Shown: positions 26,446 through 45,478 of the stretch, in pieces
How the letters are laid out: every line of letters begins with the position of its first letter
Numbering within the stretch: the stretch's first letter is position 1
Assembly (NCBI RefSeq): GCF_963677005.1
Contig: NZ_OY781616.1
Location: 1,061,501 to 1,125,500 of the forward strand
Reading direction: 5' to 3'
Length of the DNA stretch: 64,000 nt
Source: Maridesulfovibrio sp.
GTDB taxonomy: Bacteria > Desulfobacterota > Desulfovibrionia > Desulfovibrionales > Desulfovibrionaceae
Program-made: the position numbers and the translations under genes
Notes under the pieces: model-generated
The model's input: only the letters and a program-made list of their open reading frames with translations
Databases searched by the model: none
Told to the model about the DNA's origin: nothing

Positions 26446-26551
26446 GGTAAATCTCCATATAAATTAATACCAGAATCAGGGCGATAGAATAGACAGCTGC
26501 CCAAAGAGGACAGCTCGCGGATACAGGACGTGTCCGCGGGTATGTACTGCC

Positions 26552-26704
<153 letters not shown>

Positions 26705-26874
26705 ACAAGATTCATCTACCTAAAATCACGTATGTTAGTCAAGCTCTCCGGAGAAACAAATCACACGAAACAATGACGTTTGAAATAATTCTAACAGGCA
26801 TGACAGAAGACGACCTTTGAAGTATACTAAAAATTCTGAATACCCTGTACTCCATCCATTTCAAGGAAGGTCCC

Positions 26875-36086: not shown

Positions 36087-36115
36087 AAGGCTTACATCTG
36101 CTGATGTAAGCCTTT
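36087..36115 (-). terminator. Terminator of the first tRNA-Ser
   Basis: On the minus strand, AAAGGCTTACATC and GATGTAAGCCTTT form a 13-bp stem followed by a TTTTTTC tail. It lies 11 bases after the tRNA. Confidence 0.9.
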
Positions 36116-36125
36116 GAGTTATCTC

Positions 36126-36215
36126 TGGCGGAGAGGAGAGGATTTGAACCTCCGTTAGCGTTAACTAAACACGCTTTCCAGGCGTGCTCCTTAAGCCGGA
36201 CTCGGACACCTCTCC
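36126..36215 (-). tRNA. tRNA-Ser(GGA), copy 1
   Basis: A 90-base tRNA with a long variable arm and encoded CCA. Acceptor GGAGAGG pairs with CCTCTCC. The anticodon arm CACGC-CTGGAAA-GCGTG gives anticodon GGA. An almost identical copy lies at 45294-45383, also on the minus strand. Confidence 0.95.
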
Positions 36216-36365
36216 GCTTGGGAGAAAAGTTAATAAGCTGAATGGCCCCTGCTTGGCAAGAACTATTTTAAATTATTTTTATTAAAACTCGCCCGCTGCC
36301 GACAACCGCACCCGCAGATGTAGAATCCGGCCATAACTTATTCTTAAAATTTCAAAAAACCCGGA

Positions 36366-41648: not shown

Positions 41649-42878
41649 TCACTTATGCAAATACTCTGGGAATCTTGTATAAAAAGATGCCAGCAAATAC
41701 AAGGAACCGCAAACCAGTACCGTTTTATCACCGCCGCCAAGCATGGACATGGCCTGATCCAGATCAGCCGCAGCAAGCACACCTTCCCCAAGGAATGCGG
41801 CAAGGCTATCATAAGGATAGGCCCGCTCGTGTTCCGGCAGTCCACAGGCAATCAGCCGTCCGTCCGAAAGACTACGTAATGTAGCCCGGACCTCATCCAG
41901 CTTTTTATCCTTCATGCAGGAAAAAATGATAACATCCGGCCGTGCTCCCCTGCTTTGCAGCTCCGCTGCCAGCGCGGCAAAAGCGTGGGCGTTGTGCGCT
42001 CCGTCCAGAATAAATGTGCGATCATCGTGCCGGATAATCTGGAGCCTGCCGGGAATAAATCCCTCACGCACTCCGCTACGGACCTTTTCAGGAACGAAAT
42101 CAAGCCCCTTCATTTCGCAGAACAACTGCCATGCGCAGGCCGCCAGATGAGCGTTCTGCTTCTGGTGCAATCCGGCAAGGGAAGGGGCCAACCCGTCCAC
42201 GCAATCCATCTCACCGGACTTTGCAAACCTGCATCCTAGTTCTGCTGCCCGGGATTCCAGCACCCGCATGGCCTCTTCATCCTGTACGGAAGTAACGGCA
42301 TTCCCTCCGGCGCGCATGGCATCGGCCTTGTCCGCGGCAATGAGACTGATTGTAGCGCCCAGAATGTTTTCATGATCCAGCCCGATAGGAGTAAACACGG
42401 TCAGGTCCGGATCAATCGTGTTGGTGGCATCGTAGCGTCCGCCAAGGCCGGCTTCCATAACGGCCAGATCGACAGCGTTGTTTTTAAACGCCGCAAGCGC
42501 GATGCAGGTCAGCAGTTCGAAATAGGTCAGCCCGACATCCGGGGCAATTTCCATGACCTGATTGGCGGTCAGGCACCATTCCTCTTCGGACAGCATGGAT
42601 GAATTCACAGTGATACGTTCACGCGGAGAAACAAAATGGGGCGAAACGTAGGTGCCGACTTTCAGCCCGTACTGCTCTGCAATCGCGGTAAGATAGGCCG
42701 ATGTGGACCCCTTGCCGTTGGTCCCGACCACGTGGATGACCGGAAAAATGTTTTTGCCTCCCCAGCGGCGGACAAACTCCTCCATCCGGCCGAGTCCCAT
42801 ATCCATATGAAAGAGCCCCAGACTGTCCATATACTGGTCGAATTCCTCAAAATTCCTGAATTTCACTTTTACATCCAT
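41649..42878 (-). CDS. folC: Folylpolyglutamate/dihydrofolate synthase
   Basis: About 409 residues from the ATG at 42878; the frame reaches 42920, but those codons do not match the family start. IHVVGTNGKGSTSAYL is the ATP-binding P-loop, GLGGRYDATNTIDPDLTVFTPIGLDH (seen as GLGGRYDATN and FTPIGLDHENILG) is the Mur-ligase signature, and FILDGAHNAHA is the C-terminal motif. It adds glutamate to folates. It precedes selA by 15 bases on the same strand. Confidence 0.92.
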   Translation of the reverse strand: MDVKVKFRNFEEFDQYMDSLGLFHMDMGLGRMEEFVRRWGGKNIFPVIHVVGTNGKGSTSAYLTAIAEQYGLKVGTYVSPHFVSPRERITVNSSMLSEEEWCLTANQVMEIAPDVGLTYFELLTCIALAAFKNNAVDLAVMEAGLGGRYDATNTIDPDLTVFTPIGLDHENILGATISLIAADKADAMRAGGNAVTSVQDEEAMRVLESRAAELGCRFAKSGEMDCVDGLAPSLAGLHQKQNAHLAACAWQLFCEMKGLDFVPEKVRSGVREGFIPGRLQIIRHDDRTFILDGAHNAHAFAALAAELQSRGARPDVIIFSCMKDKKLDEVRATLRSLSDGRLIACGLPEHERAYPYDSLAAFLGEGVLAAADLDQAMSMLGGGDKTVLVCGSLYLLASFYTRFPEYLHK

Positions 42879-43100
42879 TTTTTTCTTGACCGACCGAAGC
42901 CGTTTGTATAAAAGAAGCATCTCTTGAGCAGCGGAAGTTATACAGTCGTAAGAAGGACTTACAGGACTTCCTTTTTTGCCAGAAAAGGCATAGTCTTTTC
43001 AACTGGTAAGCACAAGAGAATTTGTTTCAGGCTGAAGCATGGACAAAACAGCCGGAAATATGCTCTTTAAAAAATATCGGTAACATTTTGTTAACCGTTT

Positions 43101-43399
43101 GCGCCAGTAGCTCAGTTGGATAGAGCAACGGCCTTCAATCGGAGTGCCTCGGGGGAAATCCCGAGAGTAGAACCGGCCAAATTCGGGGAAACCTAAACTG
43201 CATACACAGTAAGGCAATCCCGAGCCAAGCCCCTAAGACGGGAAGGTGTAGAGACTAGACGGTCGGCATCTAAGTCCGGTTTTTGACGGATAAGATGAAG
43301 GGATAGTCCAGACCACGAACTTGTAAGATACAAGGCGGGGAAATCCGAAGTGGTAAGCTAAGCCGTTGGCCGGGGGTTCGAATCCTCCCTGGCGCGCCA
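43101..43399 (+). tRNA. tRNA-Arg(UCU) interrupted by a group I intron
   Basis: The exons are 43101-43135 and 43358-43399. Joined, they give a complete 77-base tRNA with CCA: acceptor GCGCCAG/CTGGCGC, D arm GCTC/GAGC, anticodon stem ACGGC/GCCGT, loop CTTCTAA with anticodon TCT, and T arm GGGGG-TTCGAAT-CCTCC. The cut falls after U34, the first anticodon base, the same place as in the cyanobacterial and chloroplast tRNA-Leu introns. Ordinary tRNA scans would miss it. Without splicing the cell would have to get AGA/AGG decoding elsewhere. Confidence 0.9.
43136..43357 (+). ncRNA. Group I self-splicing intron in tRNA-Arg(UCU)
   Basis: 222 nucleotides. The P3-P4 stretch GGCAATCCCGAGCCAAGCCC at 43213-43232 is near the classic tRNA-Leu intron sequence. 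GACTAGACGGTCGG at about 43253-43266 and AAGGGATAGTCC at about 43298-43309 are the P7-type core elements. The intron ends in G and the 5' exon ends in U, giving the U-G pair expected at P1, with a nearby GAG that pairs with CUU of the exon. It has no reading frame, so it is a minimal ribozyme similar in size to the Azoarcus and Anabaena tRNA introns. Subgroup IC3 is probable. Confidence 0.88.
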
Positions 43400-43612: not shown

Positions 43613-43707
43613 AATTTTGTGAAGGTTTCATCACTTCAATGACTTGCCTAAAATTTACACCTAACTTATTAGATGTGAAATACTGCTATAAGTTGGAAAA
43701 TATAAGC

Positions 43708-44889
43708 ATGAAAAATATATCTGTAAATTTTATAAAACCGAAGCATATAGTTGATAACTTAGATAACTTTGAAAAGTTAAAAGCTAAAATTATCAACTAT
43801 ATAACTAAACACAGTTATCTTACAATATCAATATTATTTTTTACTTTCATTACAGCAACGGCAATCTGGCCTGAATGGTGGAATGCAACAACAGATCATT
43901 TAAAAGTCGGAGCACCTAAAGATACAATTGCTAACTACATTATATATCGAAATATCGGTCTTTTTTTAGCTGGTTTTATTGGGGTTGGTCTAGCTTTTTG
44001 GCGTTCAAAAAGTCTTTCCAGACAAGCAACAGTAGCTGAGCAGGGGCATATAACCGAAAGAATTATTCGCGCTTCAGAACAGTTAGGAAGCCCAGAAATT
44101 CATGTTCGAATAGGGGCTATTTATACTTTGTGGAGAACGGCTACTGATACAAATTTGGAAGCAGACAAGGTTATGATTCTAGATATGTTATGTGCTTATG
44201 TAAGAAGCCCTACTGAAAATCATGTTAATGAGAATTCTTTAAGCCTTAAAGATAACTACGGTAAAATTCGCAAAAAAAATACAGAAGAAAAAATACGAGA
44301 TGATGTTCAGATATGTTTAAATCTTTTATGTAAAAAGATTATTGAACTTGATCTATCATCTCTATATTGCTGTAATTTTCAAAATTCATTCTTAAAAAAC
44401 TATAACCTCGGGGGGGCTGACCTCAGAGGGGCTTACCTCATGGGGGCTGACCTCGGGGGGGCTGACCTCAGGAGGGCTAACCTCATAAAGGCTGACCTCG
44501 GTGGGGCTGACCTCGGTGGGGCTGACCTCAAGGGGGCTTACCTCATAAAGGCTGACCTTGCTGGGACTGACTTCGGGGGGGCTAACCTCAAGTGGGCTAA
44601 CCTCAAGGGGGCTGACCTCGAGGGGGCTAACCTCAAGGGGGCTGACCTCAGGGGGGCTGAACTCAGGGGGGCTGACCTCAGGGGGGCTGACCTCAATAGG
44701 GCTGACCTCAAGGAGGCTAAACTCTGGGGGGCTAAACTCTGGGGGACTAAACTCGGGGGGGCTGATTTATGGTCAATGAACATTAACTTTACAACAATTA
44801 AAGAAATAAAAGAAATAAAACTAAATCCGAATCAGCAAGATATTCTTGGGTTAACTGCATATAAACACATAATGTCGAACACAAAATAA
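43708..44889 (+). CDS. Membrane pentapeptide-repeat protein
   Basis: I start at the ATG at 43708 (393 residues); an ATG at 43639 is also in frame and neither has a strong ribosome site. Two membrane helices at about residues 37-55 and 80-98 are followed by ITERIIRASEQLGSPEIHVRIGAIYTLW (seen as ITERIIRASEQLG and HVRIGAIYTLWRTA), a module often found before pentapeptide repeats. Then come about 25 A-(D/N/Y)-L-x-(G/R) repeats forming a right-handed beta-helix. The first 240 codons are AT-rich while the repeats are GC-rich. Function is unknown; it lies in an AT-rich island between two tRNA genes. Confidence 0.85.
   Translation: MKNISVNFIKPKHIVDNLDNFEKLKAKIINYITKHSYLTISILFFTFITATAIWPEWWNATTDHLKVGAPKDTIANYIIYRNIGLFLAGFIGVGLAFWRSKSLSRQATVAEQGHITERIIRASEQLGSPEIHVRIGAIYTLWRTATDTNLEADKVMILDMLCAYVRSPTENHVNENSLSLKDNYGKIRKKNTEEKIRDDVQICLNLLCKKIIELDLSSLYCCNFQNSFLKNYNLGGADLRGAYLMGADLGGADLRRANLIKADLGGADLGGADLKGAYLIKADLAGTDFGGANLKWANLKGADLEGANLKGADLRGAELRGADLRGADLNRADLKEAKLWGAKLWGTKLGGADLWSMNINFTTIKEIKEIKLNPNQQDILGLTAYKHIMSNTK
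44405..44765 (+). repeat. 15-bp tandem DNA repeat within the pentapeptide-repeat gene
   Basis: About 24 units of the form GGGGCTGACCTCARG follow each other with few changes. Adjacent units are much more alike in DNA than the protein code requires, which suggests recent expansion by slippage or unequal exchange. Copy number would be expected to vary between strains. Confidence 0.85.
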
Positions 44890-45250: not shown

Positions 45251-45280
45251 GGCCCCTTGCAATCTTCATTGCAAGGGGCC
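45251..45280 (-). terminator. Terminator of the second tRNA-Ser
   Basis: GGCCCCTTGCAAT and ATTGCAAGGGGCC form a 13-bp stem with a four-base loop, followed on the minus strand by TTTTCTTT. Confidence 0.9.
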
Positions 45281-45293
45281 ATTTAATTCAGTC

Positions 45294-45383
45294 TGGCGGA
45301 GAGGAGAGGATTTGAACCTCCGTTAGCGTTAACTAAACACGCTTTCCAGGCGTGCTCCTTAAGCCGGACTCGGACACCTCTCC
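45294..45383 (-). tRNA. tRNA-Ser(GGA), copy 2
   Basis: A 90-base gene that matches the copy at 36126-36215 across its whole length, including anticodon GGA, long variable arm and CCA. Similarity continues for some bases upstream (CGCTTGGG, then GCTTGGCAAG), so promoter and gene were duplicated together. Confidence 0.95.
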
Positions 45384-45478
45384 GCTTGGGTGAAAAAGTG
45401 TTTAGCTAAATAGGACTTGCTTGGCAAGCACTTTTTTCAACTTTTTCCCAATTATTCTAAGGAAAATTCCAAAAACCG

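Follow-up and report, generated by a model that had tools for sequence, protein, structure and literature searches.

A group I intron inside the anticodon of the tRNA-Arg(UCU) gene of Maridesulfovibrio sp. and its relatives in bacteria, plasmids and phages

The Azoarcus tRNA-Ile(CAU) intron is, like the intron described here, small and endonuclease-free, and it occupies another tRNA and another site. Crystal structures of this intron are cited in a 2014 review, which placed all phage introns known to date in protein-coding genes and saw little evidence for horizontal intron movement (PMC3984707). The tRNA introns of Archaea and eukaryotes are instead removed by a protein splicing endonuclease (PMC4033280). 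We analysed a 64,000-nucleotide stretch of DNA from Maridesulfovibrio sp. (the window) and consider it very probable that an endonuclease-free group I ribozyme, gained by horizontal transfer, splits the sole tRNA-Arg(UCU) gene of this organism at U34|C35 and splices by means of its guide and P7 helix.

The split gene and its intron

The tRNA gene at 43101-43399 of the window is interrupted by 222 nt inside the anticodon, after U34. Only when these 222 nt are removed does the anticodon loop read CUUCUAA, giving the anticodon UCU, and the rejoined exons then form a full cloverleaf with every pair in place in the acceptor (7/7), T (5/5) and anticodon (5/5) stems and with an encoded CCA. ARAGORN did not call the split gene because of the insert. 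The features of the gene and intron are as follows.

43101..43135, + strand: 5' exon of tRNA-Arg(UCU), with acceptor strand, D arm, 5' anticodon stem and C32, U33 and U34; same junction in the intact genes of congeners
43136..43357, + strand: group I intron, 222 nt, ending in omega-G (G43357); RF00028 match and covariation
43141..43148, + strand: guide region GGAGUGCC; G43141 can pair with C35 of the 3' exon (P10)
43149..43164, + strand: P2 hairpin with GAAA loop; 6/6 pairs changed on both sides
43173..43178, + strand: P3, 5' strand, partner 43261-43266; from the alignment of 21 introns
43183..43223, + strand: P4-P5 domain; from the same alignment
43224..43247, + strand: P6-P6a; from the same alignment
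43253..43257, + strand: P7, 5' strand GACUA, partner UAGUC at 43304-43308, the guanosine-binding helix; 100% of cells paired, two pairs doubly changed
43267..43297, + strand: P8 domain; 8/10 pairs doubly changed
43312..43354, + strand: P9 domain, an ACCAC/GUGGU helix (P9.0) around two hairpins; from the same alignment
43358..43399, + strand: 3' exon of tRNA-Arg(UCU), with C35, U36, A37 and A38, 3' anticodon stem, variable loop, T arm, acceptor strand and CCA; from the spliced cloverleaf

The intron boundaries are fixed independently by empty sites: that of congeners reads AGAGCAACGGCCTTCTAAGCCGT, which is exactly the spliced product, and cyanophage S-TIM5 has the corresponding junction intact when compared with an intron-bearing viral contig. 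The junction is ambiguous by one base, since the intron and the 3' exon each begin with C, and 43136-43357 was chosen by the rule of a U before the intron and a G at its end (U34|C35, terminal G).

The Rfam model RF00028 (Intron_gpI), which scores the conserved core P3-P9 by covariance, matches 43125-43326 on the + strand with 69.9 bits (cut-off 50, E = 1.1e-15), and this is its sole match in the 4.26-Mb genome. The intron stretch also folds better than 200 of 200 shuffles (z = -3.2). Helices P1 to P9 were drawn by hand on the Maridesulfovibrio intron and then checked against an alignment of 21 introns at position 34 of tRNA-Arg(UCU), comprising this copy, 13 bacterial and 7 viral introns. Standard pairs fill 92.3% of cells in the alignment, a figure biased in favour of the structure by its having been drawn from the Maridesulfovibrio sequence, and 40 of the 65 drawn pairs show compensatory change on both sides, a measure less subject to that bias. 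Neither figure was reached in any of 500 shuffles, and sliding the partner strand by 1-3 columns as a control lowered pairing to 32-47%. P4 and P7 are paired in all 21 introns.

In P1, the GAG of the guide pairs with C32U33U34, placing a U34-G wobble at the splice site, and GCC pairs with G29G30C31. All 21 introns have a U-G pair at the 5' splice site. The intron ends in a G, which was also required when relatives were screened. The P1 pair at G29 is unpaired in 7/21 introns, and in part of the set its G-C becomes C-G, U-G or A-U along with the host anticodon stem, indicating that the guide partly follows the host gene. P10 is weak in the Maridesulfovibrio intron, in which the guide AUCG-GAG pairs with C35 and can pair with A37, not with U36. 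No ORF of useful length, and hence no endonuclease gene, lies in the 222 nt.

A first-pass annotation of the window had already read the gene as tRNA-Arg(UCU) with anticodon UCU, split after U34 by a 222-nt group I intron preceded by U, ending in G and devoid of an endonuclease gene, and the cloverleaf, empty sites, covariance match, covariation and lack of an ORF bear it out on each of these points. The sequence word that it assigned to P3-P4 overlaps the 3' half of the P4-P5 domain. Its label of "sulfate reducer" fits the presence of dsrA in the genome.

Empty sites in the genus and the origin of the intron

An intact tRNA-Arg(UCU) gene is found in 16/16 congeneric genomes, and the gene order selB-M18 peptidase-selA-folC-tRNA is common to the window and the four congeners examined with long flanks.

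41649..42920, - strand: folC-like gene (Mur ligase domains), the conserved neighbour upstream of the tRNA gene in congeners

SelA and SelB place the host inside the genus: identity is 84-88% with the nearer congeners, 79-82% with a second set of them and 70-74% with the outlier G002. The intron, by comparison, clusters with its counterparts in Desulfogranum, Desulfobulbus and Desulforhopalus (bootstrap 96; identity 85, 83 and 80%). Such Desulfobulbus-type introns (L041, L052 and L057) share the gene and the site with the Maridesulfovibrio intron, but they belong to another class of the phylum and have different exons. Because its nearest kin lie in these bacteria, the intron is best read as acquired horizontally. 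Empty sites in all congeners together with close kin in another class make this a clear case of the horizontal movement for which the 2014 review saw little evidence (PMC3984707). The intron would have entered an existing tRNA gene, most likely through recombination with an intron-bearing donor tRNA gene, and phage-borne tRNA genes are a plausible carrier.

Transfer may have involved more than the intron. The tRNA exons differ from those of congener G016 at 6 positions, the most among 19 isoacceptors (median 0), and the pairs 4-69 and 50-64 are unlike those of all 16 congeners. Other genera of the family show these states too, and at 50-64 the Desulfobulbus group has a different one. The exon changes are suggestive of a co-converted tract, a reading graded no higher because the states are shared with those other genera; ordinary change could also explain them. 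Replacement of the whole tRNA gene by a foreign copy would likewise produce exon changes at 4-69 and 50-64, and it draws further support from a pentapeptide-repeat gene directly downstream that is not at this place in the four congeners; upstream, however, the genes stand in the order typical of the genus, and the anticodon arm also resembles that of the congeners, leaving replacement an unlikely account that nevertheless deserves attention. It is quite improbable, on the other hand, that the intron is ancient, vertically inherited and lost from all congeners. That history would account for its presence elsewhere in the phylum (L041, L052 and L057), but the intact genes of 16/16 congeners show it to be absent there, a filtered Rfam scan of 57 relatives gave no group I intron above cut-off, a strict pattern found the intron in 1 of 395 genomes of a phylum sample (the Maridesulfovibrio one, and none of the other 394), and the 80-85% identity is to introns of a different class.

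Some minor observations concern the same scan and the same region. A 25-bit match to RF00028 in the order-level relative L093 sits in coding sequence and was dismissed. The pentapeptide-repeat protein gene mentioned above spans 43639-44889. The selB-selA-folC-tRNA-Arg block lies between the two copies of a 169-base direct repeat (36110-36278 and 45278-45446, 87% identical), which holds two tRNA-Ser(GGA) genes; no tRNA-Ser was found around this block in the stretch examined in four congeners. Elsewhere in the window, an FMN riboswitch matches at 26550-26706 on the - strand with 121.7 bits.

Single gene copy and splicing

A second tRNA-Arg(UCU) gene, which the first-pass annotation had named as grounds for doubt, was sought and not found. 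A pattern that finds exactly one intact tRNA-Arg(UCU) gene in each of five congeners found none in the Maridesulfovibrio genome, and a DNA search of the genome with the spliced gene returned the two split halves as the only close matches. The other arginine anticodons found were ACG, CCG and CCU, in a tRNA list that is possibly incomplete (not every candidate was scored) and on which the intact-gene pattern search does not depend. AGA codons are in use, with 21 in eight neighbouring genes. With no intact gene, tRNA-Arg(UCU) is presumably made by splicing, and splicing is presumably essential to the cell. A cell that seemingly relies on a ribozyme for its sole AGA-reading tRNA would offer a clean natural setting in which to test how tRNA introns splice in vivo. 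The lack of an ARAGORN call would suit a dead tRNA gene, its intron unspliced and AGA codons read by other means, but we regard this as highly improbable in view of the missing intact copy, the AGA codons in use, exon stems that still pair perfectly and an intron core that is intact and conserved. Removal by a protein splicing endonuclease of archaeal type, the way of archaeal and eukaryotic tRNA introns (PMC4033280), is next to inconceivable for an intron with a group I core and terminal G.

Starting from what is directly observed (the sequence, the structure by covariation, the boundaries by empty sites and the single gene copy), we infer group I splicing chemistry and protein-free self-splicing for the favoured ribozyme. 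In the precursor, GAG would pair with C32-U33-U34 and mark the 5' splice site by the U34-G wobble; the adjoining GCC would borrow the 5' half of the anticodon stem by pairing with G29-G30-C31. Free guanosine bound in P7 would attack after U34, and the freed U34 would in turn attack behind the intron's terminal G, whereupon the exons would join and the anticodon stem re-form to give a normal tRNA.

Relatives of the intron and the reading of the anticodon

A genome search with a pattern joining the D arm to the intron core gave 30 loci, of which 28 were resolved: 13 in tRNA-Arg(UCU) at position 34, 4 in tRNA-Arg(UCU) at position 36 and 11 in tRNA-Arg(CCU) at position 36. The pattern sees only tRNAs with that D arm, so that these counts are a lower bound for a subset. 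By the taxa stated in the records, the 13 position-34 bacteria comprise 3 of Desulfobulbus type, 7 alphaproteobacterial and 3 gammaproteobacterial. The first-pass annotation knew of no intron at this site in tRNA-Arg(UCU) of a sulfate reducer. A group I intron in bacterial tRNA-Arg(UCU) is not on record in the openly licensed papers searched, but Maridesulfovibrio is not alone in having this site occupied: many phages and another 13 species of bacteria do so as well. The introns that follow U36 in tRNA-Arg(CCU) and tRNA-Arg(UCU) have related core words in the same tRNA family, but lie two bases later and use a GGG-type guide instead of GAG. Introns at U34|A35 of tRNA-Leu(UAA) (plasmid L133, Bradyrhizobium L134 and many phage contigs) share the loop position, the GAG guide for C32U33U34 and a similar P9 domain, the plasmid copy being 76% identical to the Maridesulfovibrio intron, but the base before their GAG is usually U, matching A35, whereas here it is G, matching C35.

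In viral contigs, the D arm and core pattern found 9 loci, 8 of them tRNA-Arg(UCU) at position 34. A 3'-end pattern, whose counts include near-identical contigs, placed 114 of 129 elements in tRNA genes among the matches listed; position 34 of Leu(UAA) accounts for 63 of these matches and position 34 of Arg(UCU) for 17 (one of which, L189, has a doubtful 5' exon), while Lys, Gln, Ile, Thr, Ser, Asn and Met-type (CAU) genes host others. With a pattern specific for the junction, the Arg(UCU)-34 type was seen in 49 viral contigs, the 5' exon being resolved for part of them. The statement that phage introns lie in protein-coding genes (PMC3984707) needs revision in the light of these many phage tRNA introns, unless later work has already done so. 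Contig L125 has nrdB and genes for a phosphate transporter and an epimerase; cyanophages match its exons at 96-100%, and the tRNA of S-TIM5 is intact at exactly the junction predicted from it. This intron class is also matched in isolated jumbo phages of Klebsiella and Agrobacterium. Among the phage introns at position 34 of tRNA-Leu(UAA), several long ones encode an HNH protein (Pfam matches weak but consistent), in contrast to the endonuclease-free Maridesulfovibrio intron. Desulfobulbus-type introns were sought in viral contigs and none was found, nor was any phage intron as close to the Maridesulfovibrio intron as the Desulfobulbus ones. In Klebsiella jumbo phage phiKp_21 (L135 1428-1676), a strong group I intron (103.7 bits) sits in an unannotated, apparent CAU-anticodon tRNA gene.

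P10 pairing is textbook knowledge of group I introns, but its tracking of the anticodon over seven tRNA species in one intron family seems to be new. We surveyed 75 distinct position-34 introns with a recognisable GAG guide, in Leu, Arg, Lys, Gln, Ile, Ser and Thr tRNAs, leaving out plasmid L133. The base 5' of GAG can pair with anticodon base 35 in 74/75, and bases 35 and 36 both pair in 59/75, compared with a mean of 31 and a maximum of 45 for shuffled guides (2000 trials), a count that is no probability since kinship among the sequences makes them non-independent. Pairing at 35 is possible in each of the 29 non-Leu introns, whereas guides of Leu introns, if placed opposite the same exons, would pair in 12%. 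The plasmid L133 intron, outside this count, is an exception, with G where Leu needs U. As a hypothesis on this wider pattern of phage tRNA hosts and an anticodon-following guide, we propose tentatively, as a serious possibility, that one intron family spreads among C32-U33-U34 tRNA genes with a fixed GAG, that the 1-3 preceding bases read the anticodon from position 35, that 1-2 base changes retarget it, and that phage tRNA clusters are its main reservoir and bridge between bacteria. Since the guide matches the anticodon, retargeting is open to direct test.

Sequence about 75% identical to the Maridesulfovibrio intron is present in 1265 plasmid records, mostly from Enterobacteriaceae. In pCTX-M3 (L133 2970-3263), the intron has a tRNA-Leu(UAA) gene close to aac(3)-IId as its host, is absent from the gene table and carries the Arg-type guide base.
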